The notes under the pieces: generated by a model
Database searches by the model: none
What the model was told of the DNA's origin: nothing
What the model saw: the letters and a program-made list of their open reading frames with translations, nothing else
In this document: piece after piece, positions 3,665-60,260 of the stretch
Layout: each line of letters starts with the position of its first letter
Position numbering within the stretch: the first letter of the stretch is position 1
Translations under genes and position numbers: made by a program
Assembly (NCBI RefSeq): GCF_003576645.1
Contig: NC_044924.1
Span: forward strand, 4,791,549-4,855,548
DNA: 64,000 bases
Direction: 5' to 3'
From: Ipomoea triloba
Taxonomy: Eukaryota; Streptophyta; Magnoliopsida; Solanales; Convolvulaceae

Positions 3665-6600
3665 TCAATCCTGTTTTGGGGGAATACAGAGATTGCTCTC
3701 TAGCATGAAAGAGAGATCATGCATCTGTGAGAACAGACTTTCTATATCAGTGTTTGACTGGATTGATGTATTCAAAGTGTCTCCACCCATCACAGATGTA
3801 TTGAAAATGTCTTCGTCCACTACATCTTTTCCAGCACCGTCACCGAGATTGCTTTTAGCATCTGCTATGCTGAAGAAGTAAGAGATGATTTAAGAAGGGT
3901 GATCGAACATTAAGGGTACAAGAAATAGACAATCATTGAAATATCCTCAATTACAGCCACTTATCACAGCAAACAGTGGTAGCCTCTCATAGAGGATCTT
4001 TCAAGTCTTATAGAATATTTCAAGAGAAACTAGAACTGAAAAATCATAATTCAGTCTAGAACCTCAGATCAAAGAAATTACAGAGAGCATTTTTTAAGTT
4101 ACAGTATGAAAACACAAACTGCAAAATTTTAATTCACATGCAGAAATATATATTGCAGATAAAGAACGATCACAGATCTGAGCTTCATGAGAAGCATCAT
4201 AAGCCAAAAACGATTCAATCCAGAGCAAAGTGCATAATTGCACATATTGAAGAATTTGATTGTATTTCTAAACAATTCATGAACCACATCAACCAATAAC
4301 ATCATTTCTTTTTAATTATTGTGATACATAAAGCTAAAAAGAATGATGCCAAGCCTCACTGTAGAATAAAATGAGTGAATTCCCTTTATCATTAAGCCTC
4401 AAAGGATAAAAGAACCAAGGAGTTGCACTTGAATGCTGCTTATTATCATTTATCAGTATGTTCCCCTTCATACCAAACCCCAAAACTCTTGAAGTGAGAC
4501 AAATGAATCATTCTTTAAATATCTCCATAGCATCAAAACAATGGATCAATATTTTTTGTGATTTAGTAAGCATGTTCAACATTGCATCTCCTGTCATGTA
4601 TTCATGATTCAAACCTAACAGAGTGGTCCTTTAAGTTTCTGAACACATGTTTTCATTTAATATATATCATATGGCTTTATGCATTTAGAGCTATATCTAT
4701 GCAGCTATCAGAGGTAAAGCTTGAAACTGAAAAAGTCATATTCCAAGATCTATTGAACACAACGAATGTTATAAATTTAGGGAAAGTAACACAAAAAGTT
4801 ATAACCAAAGAGATTTATCTAATCGAAATTACCATAAAATATCATAGACTTGGTAATGTGAGGTTAATTCCATGATCTGTTAGACCCATTGATGTAACAT
4901 AGACATGTGATAATACCTTTAAGTATAAACATCAGAAACAAATGAGTTATCTTGACGCAAACCATCCAAAAGAAATCTAATTCATGACTTGATAAGAATA
5001 CAATGAATATATTATGATAGTAACCAAATGAATACTGATCAAGGTAAAAACTCTACCACCTAGAAGCTTGAATATTGCAATTATAACTCATGGCAGGAAC
5101 TTTTATTTTAGTAAGTAGCATGTGAGAAATTTTAAAAGAACAGCACTTATGCACAACTTCAAAATGAGTGATGATTCAAAAATTTAATCTGAGAGCATCT
5201 ACGAACCTGTCCAACGGATGATCTTGCCAAATAGTCTTAGCCCCTGCTTCCGAAATGCTTTCCGTATGGTGCGAACTGGAAAAGTGATCTGAATGTGAAA
5301 AGCTGCTAAAATCCATATCATCAAACTTGCTAGGGCAAAACAAGTTTAATTCTGAAGTGTTCTCCAAAGCATCAACAACGTGATTATCATTTTGTGTCCC
5401 TGCCTTTGCCTGAGACTCTTTTATGGCTGTTGAAGCCGTAAAATCATTCCAATCATAAAAAATACCCCCACCCACATTCATTGCATCATAATTAGGTGCA
5501 GTGGCATTATCAGATACCAAAGTGTCCAAAGGAAAATCAACCTGATTATCATTTTGTGTGATTCCCTTTCCCAGAGGATCTTTCACAGTACTTGAACTGG
5601 TAAAATCATTCCAGTCATCAAAGGAATCTTCATCTATGTTTGTTGCATCGGGTTTAGGTGCACTGGCAACAATGGTTGGCCACTGGCTATCTTGAAACCA
5701 GTCAGTTATTGGAGTGTTCAAATTATTTTGTTGTTGAGAATCATTCACTCCAACCATTGGGTCAAATGACCCTTTTTGCTCGAAAGCTTCAGTAGTTGCA
5801 TTACTCCACAAGTCATCAGAACTCCACTTACTCACTTCATGAAATGCTACTGACTCATCCCCCTTTTTACTTTCATTCAAGTCTTTGCCACTTCCAAAGA
5901 TGGAATCGATGTCTGTAGAAACATCATTTTGTGTGGTTGCCTTACCCAGGGGATCTTTGACAGTACTTGAACTGGTAAAATCATTCCAGTCATCAAAGGA
6001 ATCTTCATCTATGTTTGTTGCATTGGGATTGGGTGCACTGACAACATTGGTTGGGAACTGGTTATCTTGAAACCAGTCATCAATTATTGGAGTGTTCACA
6101 CTATTTTGTTGTTGAGAATCATTCACTTCAACCTTTCGGTCAAATGTCCCTTTTTGCTCGAAAGCTTCAGTAGTTGCATTATTCCCCAAGTCATCAGAAC
6201 TCCCATTACTCACTTCATTAAATGCTGCTGACTCATCCCTCGTTTTACTTTCATTCAAGACTTTGCTACTTCCAAAGATGGAATCCATTTCTGCAGAAAG
6301 ATCAACTGCAGAACTTACAAAAGCATTAGATGAATTGGAATTCCCAACTTGACTTTCAGAATCAACTGTAGAACCAAATACAGGGTCAGATGTCTTAGAA
6401 ACACTCTGAGTTCCAGAATCAGCAGACCTAAAATCTGCCTCCCATCCGGAAAAATCATCAGTTTTGTTGTTTTGAGATGTGGTGACAGCTGGTTGGAAGG
6501 ATTGAACATTCTGAAACAAACTATAATCAGGAGTAGCAACAGTTTTAGCTATTTCATTTTCAACTGGGTATGATGTAGCAAGCTGTTTACAAGAAGTATT

Positions 6601-8674: not shown

Positions 8675-11600
8675 TCTACTATACTAATAAGAGCCAAAGA
8701 GAGTTAGGCCTAAAATGGGTATAAAAAATGGCGGTCAAATTATTTAATCAAATTGATGGTTCAGATGAATTATTTAATCAAATAGATGGTTAAGATAATT
8801 CAGATTAATATTATTAATAGAGATTACCTAATTTAACCTTACTTTTATGATTATCCGTTAAGTTTTCGTTAAATATTCTCTTCTCCGATAATATTCCGTT
8901 AACTTTTAACTTATCCATTAATTTTTATAAAAAAGGTCTTAGGTTCGAACCTCATCTCAATCAAATTTGACATAATTAAGTTTCTCACTCTATTTTACTC
9001 TTATTAAATTAAATAAATTAGTAGCTACAATACATATGTATTTCTTTAATTTATATTTTTTTTTTTTCGAAGATAAACGTAGCTATTCCATTAATTCATA
9101 ACATAAAACGTTTACATCAATTATCAATGAAATGGTAAACCATTCTTTACAGTCAGACATAGAAACAACTTTTCTAACTATGCTATAGAAAACTTGAATC
9201 GCAGACTGTTTCATAACTATGAAGCTATGCTCCTTCAGGAAGCTTAAAGCTTCTTCAAAGATCTGGGTCTTCGTCATCATTCTTTTTTGCTCGCCCAGGA
9301 TAAGATCAACACTTGTCGAAACCAAACTAAACGATTTATGCTAATGAAAATGAAAAGCTCGTGAAAGTAACGAGAGGAAAAATGCTCGTGAAACTAACGA
9401 GAGGAAAACACAATAATAGAGAAAAAAAAAGTGGGTAAAGTCAAAGTAGGGTTAGGAGTTCAAGACTACCAACACAAACCCCAATACCTACCAACTATTA
9501 TTTTATTCAAAGGGAGAGAAAACGGAAGAAGAAGATCTGTGGCGGTGGTCGGAGGCGGACGGAACTACGACGATGCTCAGGGCGGAAGAAGAGCGAGAGC
9601 AAACATGGAAGGTGACCAAAACCGCCGGCTCAAAGCTCTATTAGAGCTCCGGCCGGAGGCCGGCGGTGGAAGCCGAAGTTGAGCAGCAGAGAAAGGCGTT
9701 TCATTTTAGAGAGAAAAGGGAGGCAACATTCCTTTAATTTAGAATTACGTATCTACAATACCTTTATTTGAAAAAATTATTCATTATCAAAAAATTAAAT
9801 TAAATAAGAGAAATAATTTTATTAGTTATATTGTCTTTATTTTCTCTCCTGCAAATATTCTTTACATTCAAATTTATCAATTGATATTCATTACATTGTC
9901 CATTATTTTATTTTTACAATATAATTAAATATCAAAGTTATAGTACAAAATAATGTTATATATTTATTTAGCAAGTATTTTATTAATACTATGAAAAAAA
10001 ATTAAAATAATTTGAACCTAATTATATTAACTACTTGGGGATTGGTTGACAAAGAAAGTACTCGAATAATAACCCAACAAATTGAAGCGGAATCACTCTA
10101 TTTTACTCTTATTAAATTAAATAAACTGTAGTTACACAAAAAAATGGTACATATGTATTTCTTTAATACCATGAAAAAAAATAAAAAGAATAGTTTGAAA
10201 CCAATCATATTAACTACTTGCAGGATTTGTTGACAATGAAAGTACTCAAATAACCCATTACCCACCAAATTGAAGCGAGGAACTACCTTTTAATATATTT
10301 GGAATACATAATACTTTAAATTTTCAAATTTTTATTAATTTATTTAATCTTTTTTCTTAAACTAGGGATTTCTTTATGCTACCAACAATAATTATTGAAC
10401 CAAATGAACCCCAAGCAGAACACCTAAAGGAAAGTCCATAGCTTTTATATCATAATCTCATTGCATGACGTTGTTATCTATGCTACCAACAATAACCGAA
10501 TTGCAAATAACACACTACCAACAAAAAGGAAGAGAACAAATAGTAAAGATGAAGACAATGACAATGCTACCAATTTGTTTATTTATTCACATAATCCCCA
10601 TGGACACTGATGTTGTATTCAAAGAAGCCTGTTTAATGTATTCATGGGGTGAGTTGCCCCATATTTCGTTGAAGTTCCAATCTACGAAGTTTGTCGATTT
10701 TTTTTTTCCTGAATGAACTTTAGTTGTGGAGGATCTGTGTTCCCAAAGTTTTGCCTGAGGCATTATGTAGATTTTTATTTTTTTATTTCACGAGAGTTGT
10801 TCAACTTATGGAGTATATTTCTTCTACTCCTGAACTTTGATCTCTGAATTCTGGCTTAATCCAAAGGTAAACTGCCGTAATTTGTTTAACCAAGGGATAA
10901 ATTTTGAAATTTTTAATGTGAATGCCATTTCATAGGAAATATATGTATGGTGTTGATAACATTATATGATATGATATTATGAATTATGATGTTCGGCGTG
11001 CACCCATTCTAATTGTATATTTGTATGTAATAATTTGTTTAAATTCTGCCATTAAAAAAAAAGGTGTCAATTGTATGTAATAAGTTTAAATTCTTGTCAT
11101 AAAAATTTTGCCGAAAAATACCTATGACCAACTTTTTCTTTAGTAATACGGAGTATATATTTTATAATTGAGCTCTAATATTTGAAAAGGTTTATATATT
11201 TTAGATTCTCTTTAAAAACAAATTTTAAATGTTTAATTGGATACAATAATAATAATGTTAGCATGTTAATATTCTAGTAAAATTGCTTAATATTGTAATT
11301 TATTAAGCATATAAGCAAAGTTTGATTACGATTTCAATCTATTTTAATTTGAAAGGGAAACAAAAAAAAAGGCACTCCGCTATTTAAAAGCATTATACAA
11401 AACTGATATTTTATTTTATATATTCAACTTTTAAAAGATTCAATTATAGTATGTTTGTGAGATTTCATCGACTTACGAAATAAATGTGTTAAATAATTAA
11501 TACTCCGTATAATAATAAGCCAAACTTAAATACATGTGATAATAGGAAGTGCAATCCCATTAATATATCATTTTTAGACCAAATATTTAGACTATCGATT

Positions 11601-13992: not shown

Positions 13993-16900
13993 ATGACAGC
14001 TTCTGTGCAACCTAATTTCACAGACATGGATGATGATGATGAGATGCCCTTACGTTTCAAGCGTCCTAACATGGCATCAAAGTCGAATGTATCAAACTCT
14101 GAGCCAAATACATCATCATCTCAAAAGCATGATGGACAGGTAGGGAGGCAGATCTCCAATGCCAATTCTCTTAATGGTCAAAATTCTACTGTTCAAAAGG
14201 ACAAAACAGTCCCCTCCTCCAAGGCATCGCCAGTGAAATCACCATTGGTTAGCCCAAGAGTGTCACCTCCAACAAGCAAGACATCACCAGCAAATACTGT
14301 TGCTAAAAACTCAAAACCGTTAGCTTCTCCAGCTAATCGGTCAACTAATTTAAACCAATGCAGATCAAACACGGTTGTTAAGGAGGAGAAGCCATCTGTT
14401 TCAGATCCAAATGACGAATCAGACTCTGAAGATGATAAGCCATTGAGTAATAGGGTAGGATTGTCAAAAAGCAGTTCCAATCATTGTAACAAAGTGCCTG
14501 GTGCTTCAACATCGGGTCCAAAGGTTGTAAAGGATGAAGATTCAGATGACGAAATGCCCCTGTCAACAAGAATAAAAATGAAATCCAATCCAGGGGCTCC
14601 TACCATGAAGTCGCCTGACACCAATAAGAATAATAAACCTGTACTGCCTAAACGTGAGCAAAATGGTTCTGCATCTTCTACAGTGCCGAGTAAGAGATCT
14701 CCAGTTGAGATCAAATCTGCTGGTCAGAGCTCGGTTAAAAAGCCCAGGCTTTCTGATACTTCTGTTTCTGCCAAGTCTAAGCAACCATTGGTAAAAGCAG
14801 AAAAGAATGAAGACGATGATGAAGATAACATTCCTATATCACAAAGAATTAAGAAGTCATCTACTCCGGTTAATAAGTCATCATCTACAAAAAAAGCAAC
14901 TGCAGTTGTTTCTTCCTCACGTAAAATAATGAAAAAGAAAATAGTGAAGAAAAACTCTAAATACTCTCAGTCATCAAAGGTACCCCCCAGCTCTGGTGAA
15001 GCACAAAAATGGACTACTTTGGTTCACAATGGTGTAATTTTTCCCCCACCATACAAGCCTCACGGAGTTAAGATGCTATATAAGGGACAACCAGTTGATC
15101 TCACACCAGAGCAAGAGGAGGTTGCTTCTCTCTCTCTATCTCTGAATTTATTGGGTACACACAAGTATGTAATATTAAATGGTCTAACATTTTTGTTGCA
15201 GGTTGCAACAATGTATGCAGTGATGCTAGATACAGAGTACATGGACAAACCTAAATTCAAAGAGAACTTCATGAATGACTGGAAGAAACTACTTGGAAGA
15301 AATCATGTAATTCAGAGTTTGGAGCACTGTGATTTCAGCCCTATATATGACTGGCATCTGAAAGAGAAAGAAAAGAAGAAGCAAATGAGTTCAGAAGTAA
15401 GTTGACAGTTGTTGAAATTTGAAAATTTACGGAATGTGGCTAGGTTTTGTTTAAAATAACTAATTGGTGATTTAATATGTGCACTGTCTCATTAAATAAA
15501 TAATATGTGAATTATTGGTGAACTTGTCATTAAACACTTGTCTTAGGTCACATGTATCTTAATCTTTGTTTATTACTTCTGACCTATAGTCTCATCCAAA
15601 ATTTCATTATTGTGACATAAACTTATGGAGTCTAAGAGATGCCTTCCATTTGCAGGAGAAGAAGGCTTTAAAAGAAGAGAAACTGAAGCAAGAAGAGAAG
15701 TATATGTGGGCCATTCTTGATGGTGTAAAAGAGAAGGTTCTCATCTGTCTTTTCTACTGTTTGCTTTTGGGTTTCCTTTTTCCTCCTTTTCTCATCTTTA
15801 TTTATTAATCTTTTGTTCTTGTGTTTTTTTTTTTTGGGGCGNNNNNNNNNNNNNNNNNNNNNNNNNNNNNNNNNNNNNNNNNNNNNNNNNNNNNNNNNNN
15901 NNNNNNNNNNNNNNNNNNNNNNNNNNNNNNNNNNNNGGGGGGGAGGGGGGGGGGGTTGGGACTAATTAAGGGTTTGAGAATATTTCTTTTTTCTCCCCAT
16001 ATTGTTTGTTGACTCTGGTAAAGATTAGAATGATATTGTCATAACTCATAAGTACTAGATTATGGATGTTATAAATAATACTCTTACAAATTCATGAGAT
16101 TAGCTGGTTAGTTAGTTGTAACTTTTTTTTTTTTTGGCATATTACAATGACACATTCCTTCCTGTGGCTGACTATGGGATGACACATTTTGTGGTTTGCA
16201 GGTGGGGAACTTCAGGGTTGAACCACCTGGATTGTTCAGAGGCCGTGGAGAACATCCAAAGGTTTGCTTTTATGGAATTGAATAGTCTGATATCTTTTGG
16301 TTGTATCTGGATGTTTCTGAATTTTACACTTAGCCACCTAAGTAAGTTGCTCTAAGTATTGACTTTTTACAGATGGGAAAGCTTAAAAAACGCATCCGTC
16401 CAAGTGATATTACAATAAATATAGGAAAAGATGCTCCAATCCCAGAATGCCCCATCCCTGGTGAAAGGTTCTTTTCCTTATTTTTTTCAGAAACATTTAT
16501 CTCTAGAAGTGTGTAAATGATACTTTCTTACAAACTAATGGGTAAATATATTTGGTGTGAGGTACCTCTAAACTTCTAAGTTGAAAAATATATTGCAGCT
16601 GGAAGGAAATAAGGCATGACAACACCGTGACATGGTTAGCATTCTGGAATGACCCTATTAATCCAAAAGAATTCAAATATGTTTTCCTGGCTGCTAGCAG
16701 CACCTTGAAAGGGCAGAGTGACAAGGAGAAGTATGAGAAAGCAAGGCTTTTAAAGGTACTTGATAAGTTGATATAAAATCTCATGATCAACTTTTGGTGG
16801 ATATTATTTTATTTTTGATAGTTAACTCTCAGTGTATTCTGTTTCCATTGTGATCAGAAGCACTGTGGTTATGATTGATAATATAACTGCTTCTTGGATG

Positions 16901-19545: not shown

Positions 19546-20540
19546 CAATTTGTTTATTTATTCACATAATCCCCATGGACACTGATGTTGTATTCAAAGA
19601 AGCCTGTTTAATGTATTCATGGGGTGAGTTGCCCCATATTTCGTTGAAGTTCCAATCTACGAAGTTTGTCGATTTTTTTTTTCCTGAATGAACTTTAGTT
19701 GTGGAGGATCTGTGTTCCCAAAGTTTTGCCTGAGGCATTATGTAGATTTTTATTTTTTTATTTCACGAGAGTTGTTCAACTTATGGAGTATATTTCTTCT
19801 ACTCCTGAACTTTGATCTCTGAATTCTGGCTTAATCCAAAGGTAAACTGCCGTAATTTGTTTAACCAAGGGATAAATTTTGAAATTTTTAATGTGAATGC
19901 CATTTCATAGGAAATATATGTATGGTGTTGATAACATTATATGATATGATATTATGAATTATGATGTTCGGCGTGCACCCATTCTAATTGTATATTTGTA
20001 TGTAATAATTTGTTTAAATTCTGCCATTAAAAAAAAAGGTGTCAATTGTATGTAATAAGTTTAAATTCTTGTCATAAAAATTTTGCCGAAAAATACCTAT
20101 GACCAACTTTTTCTTTAGTAATACGGAGTATATATTTTATAATTGAGCTCTAATATTTGAAAAGGTTTATATATTTTAGATTCTCTTTAAAAACAAATTT
20201 TAAATGTTTAATTGGATACAATAATAATAATGTTAGCATGTTAATATTCTAGTAAAATTGCTTAATATTGTAATTTATTAAGCATATAAGCAAAGTTTGA
20301 TTACGATTTCAATCTATTTTAATTTGAAAGGGAAACAAAAAAAAAGGCACTCCGCTATTTAAAAGTATTATACAAAACTGATATTTTATTTTATATATTC
20401 AACTTTTAAAAGATCAATTATAGTATGTTTGTGAGATTTCATTGACTTACGAAATAAATGTGTTAAATAATTAATACTCCGTATAATAATAAGCCAAACT
20501 TAAATACATGTGATAATAGGAAGTGCAATCCCATTAATAT
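19546..20540 (+). repeat. Copy B (source copy) of the segment found in the Helitron
   Basis: This stretch begins 108 bases after the TOP1 stop, so it covers the TOP1 3' UTR and the spacer up to about 176 bases before the CAP-H stop. It is continuous with both genes. That position makes it the likely original and 10571-11566 the derived copy. Confidence 0.9.
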
Positions 20541-42338: not shown

Positions 42339-43566
42339 TCTACATCCGGACATTCATGTCGTATTCTAGGAACACCCAGTGTAGACATTCATGTCATGCT
42401 CTAGGAACACCTATCCAAAGAAAAATGCAATGAACAAAAAAGGCACAAATATAACTACGCAAAAAAAAAGAACCAAAAGCTACACAAGGATTTGACCCTA
42501 TACAATAAACATCTACCAAGGTATAATTGAAGCGAAGTGCAAACTCATTAGTCAAAAAATGCTAATGAGAGAAAGTCATTTACCAGTTAAGAGTTTGAAA
42601 AATTTAAAAGTGGAGATCATTTATCTGGGCAATGACTACGCATGGCAAGAATACCCTGTTTCTTAGCGTTCTTATATTGTTAAATCCTTGCCATGCATTG
42701 CCATTTTAGTCATTGTCTCTCTACATCCATTATCACATAGCACATACAGGGTAATTAAGTGAGAAAGTAATTTGTGATGCGGAGTTTTTTATTAATTAAT
42801 AATTGAAAAGCTTATAGAACACTAGTGAAAGAAGGACTTGGGGTTTTTGATTGAAACATTACAAAATGTAGTGTAAGTGATGAAAAAGTTGACAAGAATG
42901 ACCTATTTTTTTCTCATTTTTTTTTAATTACACAGATCATAGATACAATCTACATCCGGACATTCATGTCGTATTCTAGGAACACCTAGTGTAGACATTC
43001 ATGTCATGCTCTAGGAACACCTATCCAAAGAAAAATGCAATGAACAAAAAAAAGGCACAAATATAACTACGCAAAAAAAAAAAAGAACCAAAAGCTACAC
43101 AAGGATTTGACCCTATACAATAAACATCTACCAAAGTATAATTGAAGCGAAGTGCAAACTCATTAGTCAAAAAATGCTAATAAGAGAAAGTCATTTACCG
43201 GTTAAGAGTTTGAAAAATTTAAAAGTGAAGGTCATTTATCTGGGCAATGACTACGCATGGCAAGAATGCCTTGTTTCTTAGCGATCTTATATTGTCAAAT
43301 TCTTGCCATGCATTGTCATTTTAGTCATTGACTCTGTACATCCATTATCACATAGCACATATAGGGTAATTCAGTGAGAAAGTAATTTGTGATGTGGAGT
43401 TTTTTATTAATTAATAATTGAAAAGCTTATAGAACACTAGTGAAAGGAGGACTTGGGGTTTTTGATTGAAACATTACAAAATATAGTGTAAGTGATGAAA
43501 AAGTTGACAAGAATGACCTACTTTTTTCTCATTTTTTTTTAATTACACAGATCATAGATACAATTC
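42339..43566. repeat. 610-bp tandem duplication, two copies
   Basis: Copy 1 starts at 42339 and copy 2 at 42949, both with TCTACATCCGGACATTCATG. Identity is high, with a few substitutions and A-run changes. Each unit has a repeated word ACATTCATGTC...TCTAGGAACACC and an imperfect hairpin built on CAATGACTACGCATGGCAAG and TTGCCATGCATTG. No coding frame was found. Confidence 0.9.
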
Positions 43567-46920: not shown

Positions 46921-48228
46921 TTACTCTTTATTATCATTTTCCACACTCAACTTGTCCATAACATAATTATAATATGCATTATGAGCTGCCCTATTAAGTG
47001 CAGTATATTTTTTCCCCTTGAATTTGCTCTTTCCTGCAAACTCACCATTCACATAGACATGAATCTCTCCAGTCTCTTCCCACGCATCCACTGTTTCCAC
47101 TTTCCACCCTCTCTTCTGGCATATCTCGTAGAACTTGGACACCGGGTGCTGCTCAAGATTCGTCGGGGTAATCATAGGCTGCAACAAACTCTTCACTATC
47201 TGTATGTATACATCATCAAACAAATTTAAAAACCAGACATTATATTAAGAACACTTGTTTAGAACATCATGGTAATCATCATATGACAGCCTAGGAGAAG
47301 AGCAGAAACGAACCGGCCATGTTGTGTCTGTTGAGCAGCCTGAGTCGATGTATACTGCTCCCACCAATGACTCAACAATGTCTGCTAAGGCCTTGGGAGG
47401 ATCAATTAGTCCTGCTGAATGAAAGGGGTACTCTGATGCAGCCTTTTTAAAGGTGTTAACCTATATATATGAGCAAAATCAATTTCAATGATTCAATTTG
47501 AACAGATACTACAATGTTTGAAGATGAAGTTGGGATTCATAACCCCAGGCTGCAGCCATGAATCAATGACATAAGTGCTGTTTCTGGAAGATGATACATG
47601 ATTTACTGGTGGCCTGGGATTCATAACCCCATTTAGGATTCAATCACAAGTTCATGACATCTTGATTGGTCTTTTGGAAGATCATACATGATATACATGT
47701 GGGGTTCATAACCCCATCTAAGATTCAAACACATCTTGTTTTGGGAATTAGATCTATCATATTATACACACAGGCCAGGTGAGATTGTGAACTTAAAACA
47801 TTAATATCTTAACAAATTAAACAAGTAAAAACCAAGGTGTTATTATGCCTAAAGGCTATATATCCATAACCCAAAAATTGTATCTAGCTATTTTCGATCA
47901 GATGCTCATAGAGGTTTTTTTATTGAATGGCGAGGAAAACCCAAAACCACTTTCTGAGAAGTGTGTAGGGATGTCAACGGGGCGGGGGGCATACCCCCAT
48001 CCCCGCCCCCGACTTTTTCTATGATCCCCATCCCTGTCCCCGTCCCCGCCGGGGAAGGGAAAAATCTCCCCATTCCCATCTCCACGGGGATTATTCGGGG
48101 ACGGGGAATCCCCGACCCCATTTGTAATTTATAAAAAAAATAAAAATATATACACTCATTTTCAAGAAAAGAAAATCACAATGCAAGTAAATCCAAAAGC
48201 AAGTAAATTAATGGCTAGAATATTTTTA

Positions 48229-48277
<49 letters not shown>

Positions 48278-48406
48278 ATATACGTGATGTATTGTTGTGT
48301 GACTTAGTGGCTTACTAGCTAATTAATATAAATACATATTATATAGATATACATGTTGTGTATTAATTAATTATATACTTACTACTTAATTAAATATTTA
48401 AATCTA

Positions 48407-48454
<48 letters not shown>

Positions 48455-49497
48455 GGGGGCGGGGCGGGGAGGGTACTCCCCATCCCCATCCCCGTCCGGG
48501 AATTAAATATTCTCCCCATCCACGTCCCCATCGGGGCGGGGAGTCGGATTCCCCGTCGGGTACGGGTACAATTGACATCCCTAGAAGTCTGCATTGTCTG
48601 TGTAAACCAACCTTATGATAGTTAAACCAGTCTAGTTTTTCATGTACAATAACTTAGCTAGGGTTCAACCTTGTAACTTTGGTTACTCCAAATATTATTC
48701 TCATAACAAGAATTCAACACTAAACTTTTAATTAATCTAGTATTAATGAAACCAAAGACACTTATCCCACAGATGCAAGGATCTATTCATAAGTCCAAGG
48801 TTGTAGGTTTGATCAATGATCAATATGTGATAATAATGAGGGAAATTACTCCAAACCTTAGACTTTGTCTATGTGGAGTAGTGTAGACCCAGAAATTTAT
48901 AATATTCTTACTTACGTTGTAGCTTTCTGTTGAAATATTTTAAGGAAAAACTGAATAAACAAGATGGAGAGCAAGTAGGCAATTAAAAATTAAATTGACA
49001 AATTAAAACCGACTTACTTGACCCTCAAGAAGGGGCTTCCTATGCCGTAAATACTTATGCAAATTATATTTGATAGCCACGCGGGCTAACTTCTCGGTAT
49101 CGACGTTAAAAGCGCGGAGGGGAGTCAACTTCCCGGGCGGAAGCTCCGGATAGAGGAAATAATGCTCTTTCGTGATCAACTGATTCAGCACCGAATCTCC
49201 CATGTATTCCAACCTCTCGTACGAACACTCGCTCCGGTAGGACGAATGCGTGAAGGCTTGTCGCAGCAAGTTCGGATCGTTGAATTTGTACCCTACGATT
49301 TCCTCCACCTCTTCTAGATTCTTCTTCCAAGCCTCCTCCTCGTCCTCGTCGCCGTCTTTCTCGCCGCCGCGGCTTTCGGCGGCGGCGGCTACTTGTTTCT
49401 CTCCGCCGGCGACTGTTTCGTCTTCGCCGGATGATTGAAGCCCTAGAGAAGAGTCGTCGGCGGGAGATTCTTCTCGTTTGAGTTGTTGTTCCTCCAT
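46921..49497 (-). CDS. RNase III-like protein with C-terminal dsRBD, 301 aa (gene A)
   Basis: Exons from the start: 49018-49497, 47314-47460, 46921-47199 (906 nt, all phase 0). After an acidic, low-complexity N-terminus comes an RNase III domain: VEEIVGYKFNDPNLLRQAFT, the signature YERLEYMGDSVLN, DTEKLARVAIKYNL, and LADIVESLVGAVYIDSG. The acidic residues expected for Mg2+-dependent cleavage (E and D of the signature, D and E of DIVES) are present. A single dsRNA-binding domain follows, ending KKYTALNRAAHNAYYNYV. The architecture matches plant RNase III-like (RTL-type) enzymes, which cut dsRNA outside the Dicer pathway. ATG 49497 was chosen because a TATA box (49592-49601) lies downstream of the alternative ATG at 49623. 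Intron 1 holds a 618-bp MITE. A paralogue lies ~1.9 kb upstream. Confidence 0.9.
47515..47740. repeat. Degenerate tandem repeat in the RNase III gene A intron
   Basis: The words GGATTCATAACCCCA, GAAGAT(G/C)ATACATGAT and ATTCAAACACA-like sequence recur two to three times at roughly 100-bp spacing. No coding role is visible. Confidence 0.5.
47966..48583. mobile_element. hAT-type MITE, 618 bp, G/C-rich ends, in an intron
   Basis: Termini are TAGGGATGTCAACGGGG on the left and ATTGACATCCCTA on the right, in inverted orientation. Flanks are GAAGTGTG (47958-47965) and GAAGTCTG (48584-48591), an 8-bp duplication with one mismatch. The inner arms repeat CCCCATCCCC-type sequence and enclose two TA runs (about 48234-48275 and 48414-48450). 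It sits in intron 1 of RNase III gene A. Confidence 0.8.
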
Positions 49498-49591
49498 GGA
49501 ATCGATCGAAGACCTCTCGGGGAAAGTACGTAGAAGACTAGAGAAGTTTTCAGGATTTTGGTTTTCGGCTATTGTCGTGCACGTCTCGAGT

Positions 49592-49601
49592 CTATATATA
49601 G
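49592..49601 (-). promoter_or_regulatory. TATA box of RNase III gene A
   Basis: The minus strand reads CTATATATAGA about 95 bases before ATG 49497, a usual distance for a short plant 5' UTR. Confidence 0.6.
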
Positions 49602-49622
49602 AGGGTAGGCGGCATGGGGACA

Positions 49623-51356
49623 AATTTATATAATTAAACGTTGATTATTGCAATTTGCAAAATTTTCCTAAAAGGAAAGCAATAATAAATAAAATTTTGG
49701 AAATACTTGGGGATGTTTAATTTGGTGCCAATATTGAAATCATAATTATGATTGGAGTAGGTTTTAACTTTTAAGAACAACAATCTTTTTGTTTGATTTG
49801 ATATAAAAAGGCATTGAAATTATTAAAAATTTGCATACCATTAAACGAATGAAAAAAAAAAGTTAAATCATAAATTTTAAAAGGTGTACCTTGAGTGCAA
49901 TTAAAGTTCATATTTAGTGCAATGAATGATATCGTTAAATGGACTTTATACTAATCTTGAGCATATATTTCATATTATTGCTATGTGAATTTTAAAGACA
50001 AATCATAAATAGTGAATTTGTGAATCTATAAACCAAATTTAAAAAGCTAAATTATAAACTAAACAAAGAAAATTAAACTATAGTCCTTGATTTCTAAATA
50101 ACATTTTGGAATTATATTTCCACTTTTTTAAGAGATCAAGACACAAGGGAGTAATATTTTTGAAAGTGCATGCATGCATCGCACTTTTTCCACAAATGAA
50201 GTACTTTCTTTCTTCTTTATGGAGATGTCTGTCCGTCTGCGTGATTGGAAAACGGTGAATGACTGTGACTTGAGCGTAAAGAAACAGTAGTCTGTCTTCA
50301 AATCTGCCCTATCTTGTGCACCAAACAACAAATAGTCAATTGTCATCAATGTACAATGAACAATGCTCCTGCAGGTTGCCTTGGAAAGATGAAAGGTTCC
50401 GTCCTGGCCTGCTATAATAGAAAGAACTCATTTGGGACATGTAATTAAGGTCAGAAACGCATGTCTCATTTGCGTTCTATTTTGTATTTTTTTGAATACA
50501 GAATTCAAACGCAAGTCACAGTCAACCGGCATTTGACGTATAAACGCATGTACCACTTGCGTTTTATTAAATAATAATAATAATAATTGGTCGCCAGCAG
50601 TGACCCTTTTTTTTTTTTTTTTAAATAAAAACGCAAGTGATACATGCGTTTGACGTCAAACGCAAGTCCCACTTACATTTGGATTCTATATTCCAAAAAA
50701 AAAAATAGAACGCAAATGGTACATGCGTTTCTGACCTCAAACGCATGTCCCAAGTGAATTTTTCCTACTTTTGTCAACTTTTTATTTCGTTTCTATTTTT
50801 GTCAATTCCTTTGCATGCAATCCATTCTGTCTTTAACCTGCTAAGTGCTATCTAGTAACATATCATCTTTGACAATTCCATAAAAATTCTACTACATGAA
50901 CTCCCAAATCTTACTCTCTAAATTTTATTTTCTGATATGATGGACACTCATAAACTACTTTTTTTTATGTGAGTCCCAATACAAATGTCTATATCAAAAT
51001 TTTGTTTGTGGGAATAAAAATTGGAGTAAAAGATGAGAGTACACGTAGTATTTTTCATCACTGAGTGTAAAATTCACTTTTCTGCCGAGTAAAATAACCT
51101 AATGTACAAGAATTTTTGAAAAACTTGTAAGTTGTTGAAAGACAATTTACCAACAAGAAAAGATTCACCCTTTCATGCATGGCTTGTTAGTGAACTCCCA
51201 AAGAGTAGCAAGAATTACTATTGCCAAATACATCTTGATCATAAGGTCCAATCTTCAGGACATGCAGTAACTTTGTTAGATTTTGAATAATACAGAAGGC
51301 AAATCGTTCTATTCAGTTTCATGTTACACTCCATTAATATGATAGAAGATTCGAGA
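49623..51356. other. Spacer between the two RNase III genes
   Basis: Apart from the promoter of gene A near 49600 and the fold-back element at 50424-50765, I see only AT-rich DNA with no supported coding sequence. Confidence 0.5.
50424..50765. mobile_element. Fold-back MITE with arms of ~150 bp
   Basis: The left arm runs AACTCATTTGGGACATG, AAGGTCAGAAACGCATGT, CATTTGCGTTCTATTTT, AAACGCAAGT. The right arm is the inverted, diverged copy. The words ACGCATGT and CGCAAGT recur in both arms, so nearly the whole element could fold into one hairpin. No clear target-site duplication was found. Confidence 0.75.
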
Positions 51357-53980
51357 TCATGACTTGATACCTAGAACATTAACAACTTCATTGTACACCT
51401 CGCTCGCTGCTCTATTCAGGGCAACTTCTTTCTTTTGAAGGCACTTCCCTCTTCCTCTATACTGATTGTCAACAAGTACTTCACAAGTTCTGTTTTGTGC
51501 CCAGAGATCTATGAGCTGTACTTTAAGCTTGTGCTTCTGGCAGATTTCAAACAGCTTTCTCACAGGATTTGCTTCAAGCATCTCTGGGGTAATTATTGGC
51601 TCCAGCAGTGTCTTTGTTACCTGTAAGGAGAAAAATGGTTCAACATCAGTGGTTGTACACTGGATATTTATAGCGATCTCCATCCCGTAAAGGGAATAGT
51701 ATCTTCTAATGTGAAAATTGGAATCATTCCTATTTTTGTCATTCATATTAAAAGCTAGTTATGAATATGTTCAGACAGATATCATCAAGACAATGCTGAC
51801 ACAGCTAGGCAGTCTTTTCCCTTTATCAAGGAGAAAAAAAAACACAGAAGATTCATATCTTAGATTGCCACCCAGGACAAAAGTGTATGTGTAGTTATTA
51901 TATCTCAAAGAAAATGAAAATAAAGAGTTGAGAGAAAGGACAGACCTCCCAGGTTTTATCAAGTGAAGCATTGCTGTCAATGAACACAGCCCCAACTGTT
52001 GATTCAACAACATCGGCAAGCACCTTTGGAGCAGCGATCAGGCCATGGGAGTGCAAAGGGTAGTTTGGAAGAGCATCAATAAATATATTAATCTGGGATT
52101 ACAAAACAATTGCAGGTTAAAAAACAGGGAATCAAGATTCAAGACCTAATATAAGGAAAAAAAAAAACAGAAAAACTAATTCAAGGAATGCAGAAACAAG
52201 TGATAAATACTTTTTTTTTATACTTATTATCTCAACCTGTAATAAGCTTTTGGTTTGCAGTTGAGAAGGAAATTGCTTAATATTACATTCTTGTCTGTAA
52301 GCATTTCCTAAATAAAATGTGAGCTGTGAGCGACTGTAATAGAAGACTGTGGTTGCATACTCTAATTTTCTGTAACAGAACTTTAGGGGACAACTACAGC
52401 AGCAATAAAAGACATTTAAACTCTTGAATACCAATTTCAAAAGCAATAAGCCAATAACAGGGAGAAATAGATTAAGTAACCAAAAGTGCTACCAATTTCA
52501 TTAATGCAGCAAATTAGATGCTTATACAATGCTAACACTGGTTGCCTACTCTAGGTTTCCGTAACAAAACTGTGGTGAAACATCTACAGAAAAAGGCGTT
52601 TAAACTCTATATACCAATTTCAAAAGCAATAAGCCAATAACAGGGAGAAGTGATGAGTAAAAGACTAAAAGTGCCTACCAATTTTTATGGACATAGAATA
52701 CCTAGCTAGTAACTCTATTTTCTAAATACTGAATGGAAATGAGCATTCCCTAATCCTCCATAGAGAAATATAATTATAAGAGTTACACATACATAGAGCT
52801 ACACCTGACACTGGATAAATCCAGGATATGGAAATTGTGACAGAGTTACATGTATACATGAGCTACAGCTGATACTGATGGAATAGATAGAATCAACTGA
52901 TACAGCACTGCTTCTTTGCGGCATAATATCTTACCAACAGTATGCAAACACTACTGATAAAACAGGGGGACTTACCCGTTTCTTTATCTTTGGCTGTTTA
53001 TAACGTAAATATTTATGGAATTTATGTTTCACAGCAACACGTGCAAGCTTCTCTGTGTCAACATTGGCAGCACGTAGAGGTGACAACAGCCCAGGTGGGA
53101 GATCGGGGTACATTGAAATTTGTTGTTTTGTGATCATTAAGTTGATGACTGAGTCACCCAAATACTCAAGCCGTTCATATGATACACAGTTAGGATGATA
53201 AGATATATGTGTAAATGCTTGACATAGTAAACTCTTATCGTTGAAATTGTATCCTATAATCTTCTCTACTTCTTCAATATTTGGTATTGATTCAGTCCTC
53301 AACTCTCCTGGCTCCTGTAATGATTCTTTGAGTTCCCATTGATTTCCTTTAGTACCAAGGAAATCATTGAAAATGAAACCTAGCCAAGATGGAGCCAAGT
53401 CAAACAAGATCTTCAGATCAAATGCATACACTCACATTAATACTAATTTGTGTGTTCCAATAAATCCCTGACGAAAACAATGTACTTTCTCAAATGTTTT
53501 AATAGTAACTACAGATTTAGCAAATAGAAGTGTCATTTCTCCTATTTCAATCAAGGCAACCCTAAACTTCAACCAGGTTTATAAACGCAAGTAAAGCCTG
53601 CCACAGAATGCGGAGAACGACATAGTTGTGCATCCACATTCCCATAAATCAGTATCACATCTTAACAGAACATCGGATAGCGAAATTAAACCATACAGGC
53701 TAGGATCAAATTCTGAAGGTGCAGAAAATAGCGATTTCGCATTGGATGGTCAGTGAATAGAAATTTTGCATTTCTTGCATAAACGCTTGTGCTTCAATTC
53801 CCTAATCCTCATTAGCTACCATAGCATAGAGACAGCTGGCACACACACATATATATATAGAGAGAGAGGGGAAGAGGGGGAGAGAGAGAGAGAGCGCTAA
53901 CCATAAGAGGCGAGCCACTTCTTGGCTGGAGACCAGAAGGACTGTAACCAAGACGCCCTTCGTATTTGGGAAGACGACAT
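51357..53980 (-). CDS. RNase III-like protein with C-terminal dsRBD, ~286 aa (gene B)
   Basis: Exons from the start: 53902-53980, about 52976-53346, 51946-52092, 51357-51620 (861 nt). The first exon encodes MSSSQIRRASWLQSFWSPAK and continues KWLASY, basic and Trp/Ser-rich, possibly a targeting peptide. Its join to exon 2 is uncertain: acceptors at 53346 or 53430 both keep frame; I prefer 53346 for its better pyrimidine tract. The RNase III domain has VEKIIGYNFNDKSLLCQAFT, YERLEYLGDSVIN, DTEKLARVAVKHKF and LADVVESTVGAVFIDSN, so the catalytic acids are kept. A dsRBD ends KKEVALNRAASEVYNEVV. The middle exon has exactly the length of its gene A counterpart (147 nt) and the same phases, so the two are tandem duplicates. 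The 5' half recurs at 54641-55616. Confidence 0.88.
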
Positions 53981-54639
53981 CTATGAATTTTAGGCCGATA
54001 CAGTGATGTACATTTCTAAAAGTAGGAAGTAATTAGCCCAAAAAATATGGGCAAGTTGGGTTTGTAATTTTACATACGGGCCCGGCCCATAAAAAAATAC
54101 TGATACCAGCATATGGCAAAATATACTGTGCACCACGGTGCACATAGCAATGTGCACCACGTACCTAAACGACGTCGTTTTGAGCATTGTAAACTAATCG
54201 TCCGTTTTTTTTGGAAATTATGTTTCCCGTTTCGGCCGGTCTCTATATTTATGTTAATATTCTGTGTATTCCAGGCAATCATTCTGTGTATTCTAGGCAA
54301 CCGTTCTGTGTATTATAGGTAACCGTTATGTGTATTCATGTTAGTAACACATGTTGTGATGTGTTTGTGCATTCGAATGTTTAGGAGGATGAGTTCTGTG
54401 TATTTTGTGTAAATATTATGTGTATTTTGTGTAAATATTATGTGTATTCATGTTATTAACACAAGTTGTGATGTGTTTGTGCATTCGAATGTTAGGAGGA
54501 TGGGTTCTGTGTATTTTGCGTCAATATTCTGTGTATTATGGGCAAACATTCTGTGTATTCTAGGCAAACGTTCTGTGTATTCTATATAATGATTATGTGT
54601 ATTATAGATAATGAATTCCCTAGAGTCATTCGCGTCCAC
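53005..54639. repeat. 1.6-kb duplicated block, copy 1 (left of the single N)
   Basis: The block spans most of exon 2, intron 1, exon 1 and the upstream region of RNase III gene B, up to the N at 54640. It recurs at 54641-56275 with an offset of 1,636. By eye the copies are identical until the last ~20 bases (CCCTAGAGTC versus CCCTGAGTC, and GTCCAC versus GTCCGC). Confidence 0.95.
54115..54639. mobile_element. MULE-type MITE, copy cut off by the N
   Basis: Same element as 55751-56355, preceded by the same 9-mer CCAGCATAT (54106-54114). Its right end is missing at the contig edge. It begins about 135 bp upstream of the gene B ATG. Confidence 0.7.
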
Positions 54640-54640
54640 N
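54640..54640. other. Single-N scaffold join
   Basis: One N separates the end of copy 1 from the exact start of copy 2. This is what is expected when two contigs with overlapping ends are placed side by side without merging. Confidence 0.85.
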
Positions 54641-56275
54641 GTAAATATTTATGGAATTTATGTTTCACAGCAACACGTGCAAGCTTCTCTGTGTCAACAT
54701 TGGCAGCACGTAGAGGTGACAACAGCCCAGGTGGGAGATCGGGGTACATTGAAATTTGTTGTTTTGTGATCATTAAGTTGATGACTGAGTCACCCAAATA
54801 CTCAAGCCGTTCATATGATACACAGTTAGGATGATAAGATATATGTGTAAATGCTTGACATAGTAAACTCTTATCGTTGAAATTGTATCCTATAATCTTC
54901 TCTACTTCTTCAATATTTGGTATTGATTCAGTCCTCAACTCTCCTGGCTCCTGTAATGATTCTTTGAGTTCCCATTGATTTCCTTTAGTACCAAGGAAAT
55001 CATTGAAAATGAAACCTAGCCAAGATGGAGCCAAGTCAAACAAGATCTTCAGATCAAATGCATACACTCACATTAATACTAATTTGTGTGTTCCAATAAA
55101 TCCCTGACGAAAACAATGTACTTTCTCAAATGTTTTAATAGTAACTACAGATTTAGCAAATAGAAGTGTCATTTCTCCTATTTCAATCAAGGCAACCCTA
55201 AACTTCAACCAGGTTTATAAACGCAAGTAAAGCCTGCCACAGAATGCGGAGAACGACATAGTTGTGCATCCACATTCCCATAAATCAGTATCACATCTTA
55301 ACAGAACATCGGATAGCGAAATTAAACCATACAGGCTAGGATCAAATTCTGAAGGTGCAGAAAATAGCGATTTCGCATTGGATGGTCAGTGAATAGAAAT
55401 TTTGCATTTCTTGCATAAACGCTTGTGCTTCAATTCCCTAATCCTCATTAGCTACCATAGCATAGAGACAGCTGGCACACACACATATATATATAGAGAG
55501 AGAGGGGAAGAGGGGGAGAGAGAGAGAGAGCGCTAACCATAAGAGGCGAGCCACTTCTTGGCTGGAGACCAGAAGGACTGTAACCAAGACGCCCTTCGTA
55601 TTTGGGAAGACGACATCTATGAATTTTAGGCCGATACAGTGATGTACATTTCTAAAAGTAGGAAGTAATTAGCCCAAAAAATATGGGCAAGTTGGGTTTG
55701 TAATTTTACATACGGGCCCGGCCCATAAAAAAATACTGATACCAGCATATGGCAAAATATACTGTGCACCACGGTGCACATAGCAATGTGCACCACGTAC
55801 CTAAACGACGTCGTTTTGAGCATTGTAAACTAATCGTCCGTTTTTTTTGGAAATTATGTTTCCCGTTTCGGCCGGTCTCTATATTTATGTTAATATTCTG
55901 TGTATTCCAGGCAATCATTCTGTGTATTCTAGGCAACCGTTCTGTGTATTATAGGTAACCGTTATGTGTATTCATGTTAGTAACACATGTTGTGATGTGT
56001 TTGTGCATTCGAATGTTTAGGAGGATGAGTTCTGTGTATTTTGTGTAAATATTATGTGTATTTTGTGTAAATATTATGTGTATTCATGTTATTAACACAA
56101 GTTGTGATGTGTTTGTGCATTCGAATGTTAGGAGGATGGGTTCTGTGTATTTTGCGTCAATATTCTGTGTATTATGGGCAAACATTCTGTGTATTCTAGG
56201 CAAACGTTCTGTGTATTCTATATAATGATTATGTGTATTATAGATAATGAATTCCCTGAGTCATTCGCGTCCGCG
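54641..56275 (-). pseudogene. Second copy of the 5' half of RNase III gene B (probable assembly artefact)
   Basis: This repeats 53005-54639. On the minus strand it holds exon 1 (55538-55616) and exon 2 from about 54982 down to the N, lacking the last 29 bases of exon 2 and all downstream exons. Taken at face value it would be a truncated duplicate gene. The lack of divergence over 1.6 kb and the N at its border argue that it is the same DNA assembled twice. Confidence 0.85.
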
Positions 56276-56355
56276 TCTACTAACACCGAAACGACGTCGT
56301 TTTACGTACGTAGTGCACATTGCTATGCGCACCGTGGTGCAGGGTATAACGATTG
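55751..56355. mobile_element. MULE-type MITE, 605 bp, with 9-bp flanking repeat
   Basis: CCAGCATAT flanks the element at 55742-55750 and 56356-56364. The inverted termini start seven bases inside and run about 50 bp: TATACTGTGCACCACGGTGC, ATAGCAATGTGCAC, then AAACGACGTCGTTTT. The interior is a loose tandem array of TTCTGTGTATT and GTGTATT units. A 9-bp duplication and long TIRs suggest a Mutator-derived element. No transposase is present. Confidence 0.75.
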
Positions 56356-56474
56356 CCAGCATATACCTCCAACTCAAATTATATGGTAGATTGGTAGGCT
56401 TAAAAAATAACCGAATAAAGATTTAATTAGATATTGAAATCTATCGAAGAAAGCGATTAATTCATGCCCTCGTT

Positions 56475-57399: not shown

Positions 57400-60260
57400 A
57401 TATATGATTATACTAGTACTATTGTGGACTTTCGGCATTATAACATTGTATATAGTATAACACTGAAATTTTAAAGTATTTTTATACTTTATTCGTTGTA
57501 TAAGAAGGCAATGTACTGGGTTGTCAAAATAATACTACCACAAAATGTTAGAGGACCATCTAGAATGTACATAAGATATCCCAATAAAGAAAAAACTATA
57601 TCTTATACGGTGGTCACATCTTGAAAAATTGTTGGTAGAAGTCTAGAAGCTAGAGTTTTTGGAAAACTATATCATATTTTCTTGTTTATAGAACTATAGA
57701 AGTGCATCATACTATTTAAAAAGAACACAAATAGATATCTAATTTAATAATTACTGGATCAAGATTTGAGAATCACAATATAAAAGTTACAACTAAACTC
57801 TTATACTCATACATTATACAAAACTCTCATTTTTTACCTTATCACCTAGTCAATTGCGTTTCAATCACTTTATACTCATACATTTATACAAAACTCTCAT
57901 TTTTTTACCTTTTCACGTAGTATAACTTAACTCTATATACCCTAATCTAATTTACACTAAATCCAAAATCAACAAAGGCAAACTACTCTCAAAGTGTCCT
58001 ATGCAAGACTTTTTTTTTTTTTTTTTTTTTTTTGGGGGGGGGNNNNNNGGGGGGGGGGGGGGGGGGGGTTAGTTCTAGCTTGATAGGCTGATAGCTACCT
58101 CAAACTAAGACAAACGGTTCGCACATTTGTCCTCTTTTTTGAATGTGTGAAAATTAAAACACCTCAAACTCATTTGTTTACAATCAATTGGCTACAGGCT
58201 AAAAACAAATACGGAGTATATATTAACTCCTCTTTACCATCTCTTCTCACATTTCGACATTTCGTATGTTCATAATCACACTCTCTAAATCGACTAATCA
58301 AATCCAAATATTCTTTAGCACCTCTCTCTAGCTAAACATAATCGTTCAAGTAAACTTTAAAACTTAATCGTAAATCATTTACTTATCTCATAGGAATTTA
58401 AAAAAAAAAAAAAACCAAAAAAAAAAAAAACTAATAACTCAGGGTGTGTTTGGTTTGCACATAAATATCGAAATCGGAATGAGAATTAAATACTTGTAAT
58501 GTTAATGAGTTTTGGTAAAAGTATCTTGCATGTTTGCCTTGTTTGGTAGTATGGTAGAATAGAAATCATTGCCAATATTGAAGTTTAATTATGTATAGTT
58601 TTATAATAGAAATAAAAATTTTAAAAATACAAAAATAAAAAATCAAAGCAATTAATCCTAATATAATGACATTCAAAGTATCAATATGAACAAAACAAAA
58701 ATCTAAAAACACTAATCCATATTTTAAAGTACAAAAATAAAAAATTCAAAGTCTTACATAAATTTTTGTGATATATTAATACGGAGTATATGATAACCAA
58801 AAGTAAGAACTAAATTTAAAAAAATAATAATAATTAATTGTCCATGGACCATAAGGTCATTGTAATGAATATTAGGAAAAATAAACAAAAATAAAAAATC
58901 TCGTGGTCTATCGCTTATGCGCCTACGAGACTCTTCCTGTACTCACCTGACTAATGAGTGCGTCGGCATTTGACTTTGACTTTATTATCTTATGGCGGTG
59001 ATACCCTTAGCATGCGTTTGGTCATTTAACGCCCTAAACTAACCCAATCATAAACACTGCTTAATATTCAGAGTTGAATGGCATTTTGGTCCTTTCAAGA
59101 GTTCAAAGTCTCATCAGTTCACTTCCACTCCAAGTTAATAAGCTATGCCTCCCTTTCATTGTCAAATGTCACCGTCCCAATTAAATTGTGATTCCCACCA
59201 CCACTCCCAACCGTCCCAATTACTCCCCCTATATAATTTTTTTATTATTTAAATTTAGCCCATTTAAACGGGTTGAGATCCCACTTGTTATTTTCCATTT
59301 AAATTCTAATGTTTATATTACTCTGTATTTGATAACGATATTTTTTACATGTATTACCCGTATAATTGAATATGAATGCTTTGTTGAGTTTGTAAGATTT
59401 TTATTGAAAGTAATGTCGAATAAAATATCTTAGTCCCTTGACATAAAGGTATTTAATGTTGTTTATTTGAATAAATTATTATTAATAATTACTATGTTTA
59501 TGTATTAATTGATTGTAATATATTTTGCATAATTGTCTTGTGGTGTAAAATAACAATATAATTTATTAACCTTAGCCTTTTGTGTATACAAAATCAAAAT
59601 TTCTACAATATTATATGACAAACATTATATTTAAAAAAGAAATAGTTCATAATATGCATTAGTTTAATATAGGTACAATATATAATCGCTATTCTTATTT
59701 GATTTTATTTACTTACGGAATTATTACCCGTATAATCAATGCTTTTTGTAAGAAGTACAATTATGTATATGTTATTTGAGCTATAATAGATACTATCAAT
59801 ACTTGCTTCCATATTATATGAGTATAATTTGAGTTGGGACAACTCCAACCGAGTTGGTTGAACAATTGACTTAGTAATTATAATGTTCAAAGTTTGATTC
59901 TTTGTGAAAGTTGAGTCATCTTGATTGGTTTACCTCATTGTGATTTTTTGCCCGACTTCACAAGACAAGATTCACTTGGAATATATATTAAAGTAGTGAT
60001 GTATTGTACTGGTTGTGAACTTTCTCATAAATCAAAGTATAATCTGAGTCATCCATTCATGAGAACTTGATATACACATCATCACCATGGATCCAATGGT
60101 GCCAAAAAAAAGAAAGAAAAAGAAGTAATATAATGCTCCCCATTTCCCACAAGGGCGGGGGTGTGAGATCCAATGGGCGAAGATTTTGAAAAATGTTGTG
60201 ATGATCGCAGGCGGAGACTATGACCAAAGTACAACAACAACAACACAAGACATGGACCAA
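57400..60260. other. Intergenic, AT-rich, with a gap
   Basis: There is a short direct duplication at about 57797-57910 (TTATACTCATACATT, ACAAAACTCTCATTTTTT). A gap of six Ns lies at 58043-58048 within T and G runs. From 58441 a GGGTGTGTTTGGTTTGC sequence resembles the start of a MITE without a clear partner. No gene is supported. Confidence 0.45.
58008..58070. other. Assembly gap (6 N) within T/G homopolymers
   Basis: A long T run passes straight into a G run, then six Ns, then more G. This repeats the pattern at 15842-15936. Confidence 0.85.

Follow-up and report, generated by a model that had tools for sequence, protein, structure and literature searches.

An apparent 1.6-kb tandem duplication beside an RNase III-like gene is best explained as an unmerged overlap of contig ends

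Introduction

Does the locus described here hold two RNase III-like genes or three? The window, by which we mean the whole 64,000-base stretch analysed (C9:4791549-4855548), contains two such paralogues, gene A and gene B, and next to them what looks like a truncated third. The extra gene fragment appears where 1.6 kb of DNA is written twice in tandem with a single N between the copies. An initial annotation had proposed that two contigs with a 1.6-kb overlap were laid end to end at this N. That proposal is now supported from several sides: the end of the left contig is also the beginning of the right one, the copies differ only in a short tip, and two sister loci in the same assembly are built alike. 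Judged from the assembled sequence, the tandem duplication is very probably an assembly artefact, an unmerged overlap of contig ends. With this as the best explanation, the locus almost certainly has neither a third RNase III-like gene nor a doubled promoter.

Results

The two copies meet at one N and differ only at the tip of the left one. In a base-for-base comparison, positions 53005-54621 are identical to 54641-56257 (1617/1617 bases, offset 1636), and the match does not extend leftward beyond 53005. The left copy stops at the N, which is the sole N at this join (position 54640), and the right copy starts directly after it. The left contig thus ends in the sequence with which the next one opens, and the alignment stops no more than a few bases short of either contig end, as it does where contigs overlap. 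In BLAST the copies align over 1633 columns at 99.94%. This is the top self-match of the window, with 2938 bits against 1780 for the next, and the match between the copies is therefore not due to chance. Among the hits that were scored (40 of 1534 candidates) in a search of the whole genome, 461,989,178 bases in 17 contigs, only the two places in the window cover query bases 1-1096, its unique part.

All differences fall within 54622-54639, the closing 18 bases of the left copy. Compared without gaps, this tip mismatches the right copy at 16 of 18 positions; with one gap allowed, a single extra base (54622) and a single substitution (A at 54638, G at 56273) account for everything. If the two differences were placed at random along the copy, the chance of both falling in the last 18 bases would be about 1e-4. 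The initial annotation had described copies without visible differences except at the very end, joined at one N, and this description holds. Its left copy, 53005-54639, also stands; its right copy, given the indel, ends at 56274 and not at 56275. The estimate that collapsing the pair would shorten the window by about 1,636 bases is borne out as well, at 1636 bases if the form of the right copy is kept and 1635 if that of the left tip is kept.

The deviating tip has matches elsewhere. It lies inside a repeat, a Mutator-type miniature transposon whose family has short-form and long-form members. An exact search with the final 30-mer of the left copy hits the genome at 10 places. Nine of these are elsewhere, among them a pair on C6, and a control with the 30-base pattern read backwards found no match in the genome. 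At both places on C6 the 30-mer is followed, in alignment, by the internal block that long-form members carry. As far as the letters tell, the right copy is probably correct and the tip of the left contig appears to have strayed onto another family member, since the tip matches other copies of the repeat and the nearest relative of the element, L003, is a short form of 605 bp. We also considered the reverse, that the right copy lost an internal block by collapse, given the resemblance of the left tip to the internal site of the long form. This is less likely; L003, at 95% identity, shares the short form.

The same anatomy is found at two other places in the assembly. We picked sister loci by close same-strand matches of the element or the tip, and not by the presence of an N. 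At C1:30688948 (L029:3448) a single N separates a suffix and a prefix that are identical over 1478/1478 bases, and the element gives two equal-scoring matches on one strand, 1479 bases apart. At C6:17023123 (L036:2723) a single N joins contigs that overlap by 1605 bases at 99.8%, with 1597 identical bases and then a 13-base tail, up to the N, that has 7 mismatches; the two tip matches lie 1611 bases apart. A cluster on C12 (L030) was rejected as a sister case; it holds close element matches without an N, and its copies are divergent. In all three single-N overlap cases one edge of the overlap falls inside this repeat, which is partly an effect of selection because the repeat was the query. The overlaps are also alike in length (about 1635, 1478 and 1610 bases), and this might reflect the limit of some gap-filling step.

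Other gaps and repeats nearby do not have this anatomy. In 305 kb comprising the window and its surroundings there are 11 gaps, three of them of a single N. No long overlap is present at any of the other 10 gaps in these 305 kb; two have short low-complexity matches only (a 41-base poly-C match at 83% and a 63-base TA match), and at the other two gaps within the window no suffix matches a prefix. We also listed the direct-repeat pairs of at least 250 bases lying within 12 kb of each other. Only the 53005/54641 pair has nothing but the N between its copies, the aligned ends being 3 bases apart and one of the three being the N. Two other listed pairs have N between distant copies, an LTR-like pair at 99.7% (95 N) and a pair at 95.9% (26 N) of which the second copy runs up to a long gap. 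Those with no N in between range from 76.3 to 99.6% identity.

Some of these repeats and gaps deserve a record of their own. Window positions 10571-11566 and 19546-20540 are direct repeats of 996 bases (99.7% identity). A spacer of 8 kb that includes a 95-N gap separates them, and they look like the long terminal repeats (LTRs) of a young retrotransposon. The abutting segments 42339-42949 and 42949-43564 form a tandem pair of ~616 bases at 95.9% without an N, which looks like a real tandem duplication and provides a useful contrast. Direct repeats at C9:4946481-4947073 and C9:4953227-4953842 (616 columns, 95.9%) are 6 kb apart, and the second copy ends at a 1297-N gap. An array of units of about 4.45 kb, with long alignments 95-99.6% identical, occupies C9:4884246-4909797 (L021-L024); several of its alignments are interrupted at C9:4900017/4900018, perhaps by an unmarked join, and there the units are spaced at 4500 against 4454. 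Runs of poly-G or poly-C, in the window after poly-T, border the gaps at window positions 15842-15936 and 58043-58048 and at C9:4755681 and C9:4972542, and are perhaps artefacts of sequencing or gap filling. The gap at C9:4952692 is exactly 25 N long, as is characteristic of one gap filler that works with long reads.

The miniature transposon is whole only in the right copy. Its inverted ends, about 60 bp long and 90% identical by BLAST, lie at 55758-55816 and 56289-56348, and a perfect 9-bp direct repeat, CCAGCATAT, flanks it at 55742-55750 and 56356-56364. A 9-bp target-site duplication (TSD) and long terminal inverted repeats are features of the MULE family, and the element in the window has both, its TSD agreeing at 9/9 bases. 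The left copy stops inside the element. Among six relatives inspected by eye, the TSD bases agree at 9/9 in L005, L006 and L008 and at 8/9 in L003 and L007; L004 has none. The transposon sits upstream of gene B.

Genes A and B both have an RNase III domain in their first exons according to Pfam. Over 164 aa, gene A shares 94.5% identity with P0041, an Ipomoea batatas protein named ribonuclease 3-like protein 3. Protein similarity thus assigns the window to the genus Ipomoea, with good support. The gene B frame, 52931-53431, matches PF00636 (5.7e-15) and PF14622 (7.1e-14), and the gene B exon is 87-88% identical to P0001. Pfam gives no match for the frame 51357-51746, further downstream. The exon copy to the right of the N is short of 29 coding bases at its end and has neither a splice donor nor later exons. 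Together with the doubled upstream region it answers to the truncated extra gene and doubled promoter that had been said to arise at the join.

Table 1. Features at and near the single-N join (window coordinates)
Feature	Position	Strand	Details and basis
Left copy, suffix of left contig	53005..54639	.	matches 54641-56257 without a difference over 1617 bases; deviates in the final 18
Deviating 18-base tip of left contig	54622..54639	+	resembles internal site of the repeat's long-form copies
Contig join, single N	54640	.	
Right copy, prefix of right contig	54641..56274	.	sequence comparison and BLAST
Complete 605-bp Mutator-type miniature transposon, right copy	55751..56355	.	inverted ends and TSD
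Same transposon, left copy	54115..54639	.	cut by the N before the right inverted end
RNase III-like gene A, neighbouring paralogue	46924..49623	-	first exon 49003-49623; Pfam PF14622 4.2e-16; later frames from open-frame list
RNase III-like gene B, coding exon	52976..53431	-	open frame begins at 53431; exon ends at GTAAGT splice donor; Pfam
Gene B, probable downstream exons	51357..52098	-	frames at 51901-52098 and inside 51357-51746; by-eye comparison with gene A and P0041
Second copy of gene B exon, very probably spurious	54641..55067	-	cut by the N; sequence comparison

Discussion

How would such a join come about? The genome most likely holds one copy of the 1.6-kb stretch, consisting of the gene B exon, its upstream region and the miniature transposon. 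This stretch would have been contained in both of two contigs, or in two gap-filling extensions made from either side. At its tip the left contig would have strayed for 18 bases into sequence belonging to other copies of the repeat, and the strayed tip may have hidden the overlap from recognition. The pieces would then have been written in series with a single placeholder N.

The history of related assemblies would fit such a course of events. The wild sweetpotato relatives I. trifida (462.0 Mb) and I. triloba (457.8 Mb), with 15 linkage groups, were assembled from short reads, and gaps were later filled by long reads (PMC6214957). Should the assembly examined here come from a wild sweetpotato relative, a short-read build with gap filling would count in favour of an artefact.

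Comparable errors have been described. The pair resembles duplicated overlapping contigs (DOC; Kelley and Salzberg 2010, PMC2864568), in which the overlapping ends of neighbouring contigs are placed in series and give a false segmental duplication that may include exons. DOC are, however, ascribed to haplotype differences and have a median identity of 98.1%, whereas the copies in the window are identical except for the tip. A second counterpart is homotype false duplication (PMC9516828): there, adjacent copies on the same scaffold are separated by a gap, do not differ by haplotype and produce false gene gain. Here the gap is the single N, and outside the tip the copies are the same base for base. 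This identity is read from the assembly, whereas homotype duplications are defined by read depth and their haplotype differences by read k-mers; the window pair is known from assembled sequence alone. SOAPdenovo2 is reported often to put gaps between overlapping contigs (PMC5368935), a behaviour comparable to what would have happened at this join. In our literature search, including the excerpt of PMC5368935, we found no direct statement on the single-N conventions of assemblers.

Could the duplication instead be real? If a tandem duplication had happened very recently, with one breakpoint in the RNase III-like exon, another in the transposon and an unresolved junction at the N, gene B would have a second copy of its upstream region, and a truncated RNase III-like exon would sit beside the transposon. 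Such a duplication, too, would have its junction where the copies meet, and near-identical arrays without N exist in the same 305 kb. We nevertheless regard a real duplication as very unlikely. The differences between the copies are confined to the contig tip, and that tip matches other copies of the repeat; the same pattern recurs at two further single-N joins; and zero differences in 1617 bases put the upper age at about 70,000-130,000 (years or generations, with assumed substitution rates). Least likely of all is a heterotype false duplication, in which the two haplotypes of a heterozygous region stand one after the other. False duplications often arise in this way (PMC2864568, PMC9516828), but zero differences in 1617 bases speak against it here: their chance is about 0.02 at the 0.24% heterozygosity given for I. 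trifida (PMC6214957) and 3e-4 at 0.5%. So do the identities of Kelley and Salzberg, of which few exceed 99.5% (PMC2864568).

Several points weigh against an unmerged contig-end overlap. The evidence comes from the letters of one assembly. A single N is no proof, because of the three in the 305 kb one lies in poly-T and another (C9:4950307) has no overlap, the third being the join itself. Nor does identity alone prove anything, since nearby tandem copies without an N are up to 99.6% identical. The sister cases number only two and were found with this repeat as the query. One of them, on C1, lacks a deviating tip, which rules out a strayed tip as the cause in every case.

An unmerged overlap of contig ends remains the reading that we favour. 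The three cases of the same anatomy suggest a recurring assembly error, one that could be found by a suffix-prefix scan of single-N joins. At the locus itself, reading the duplication as an artefact clears the annotation of a doubled promoter and of a spurious fragment of a third RNase III-like gene, and leaves a locus of two paralogues.
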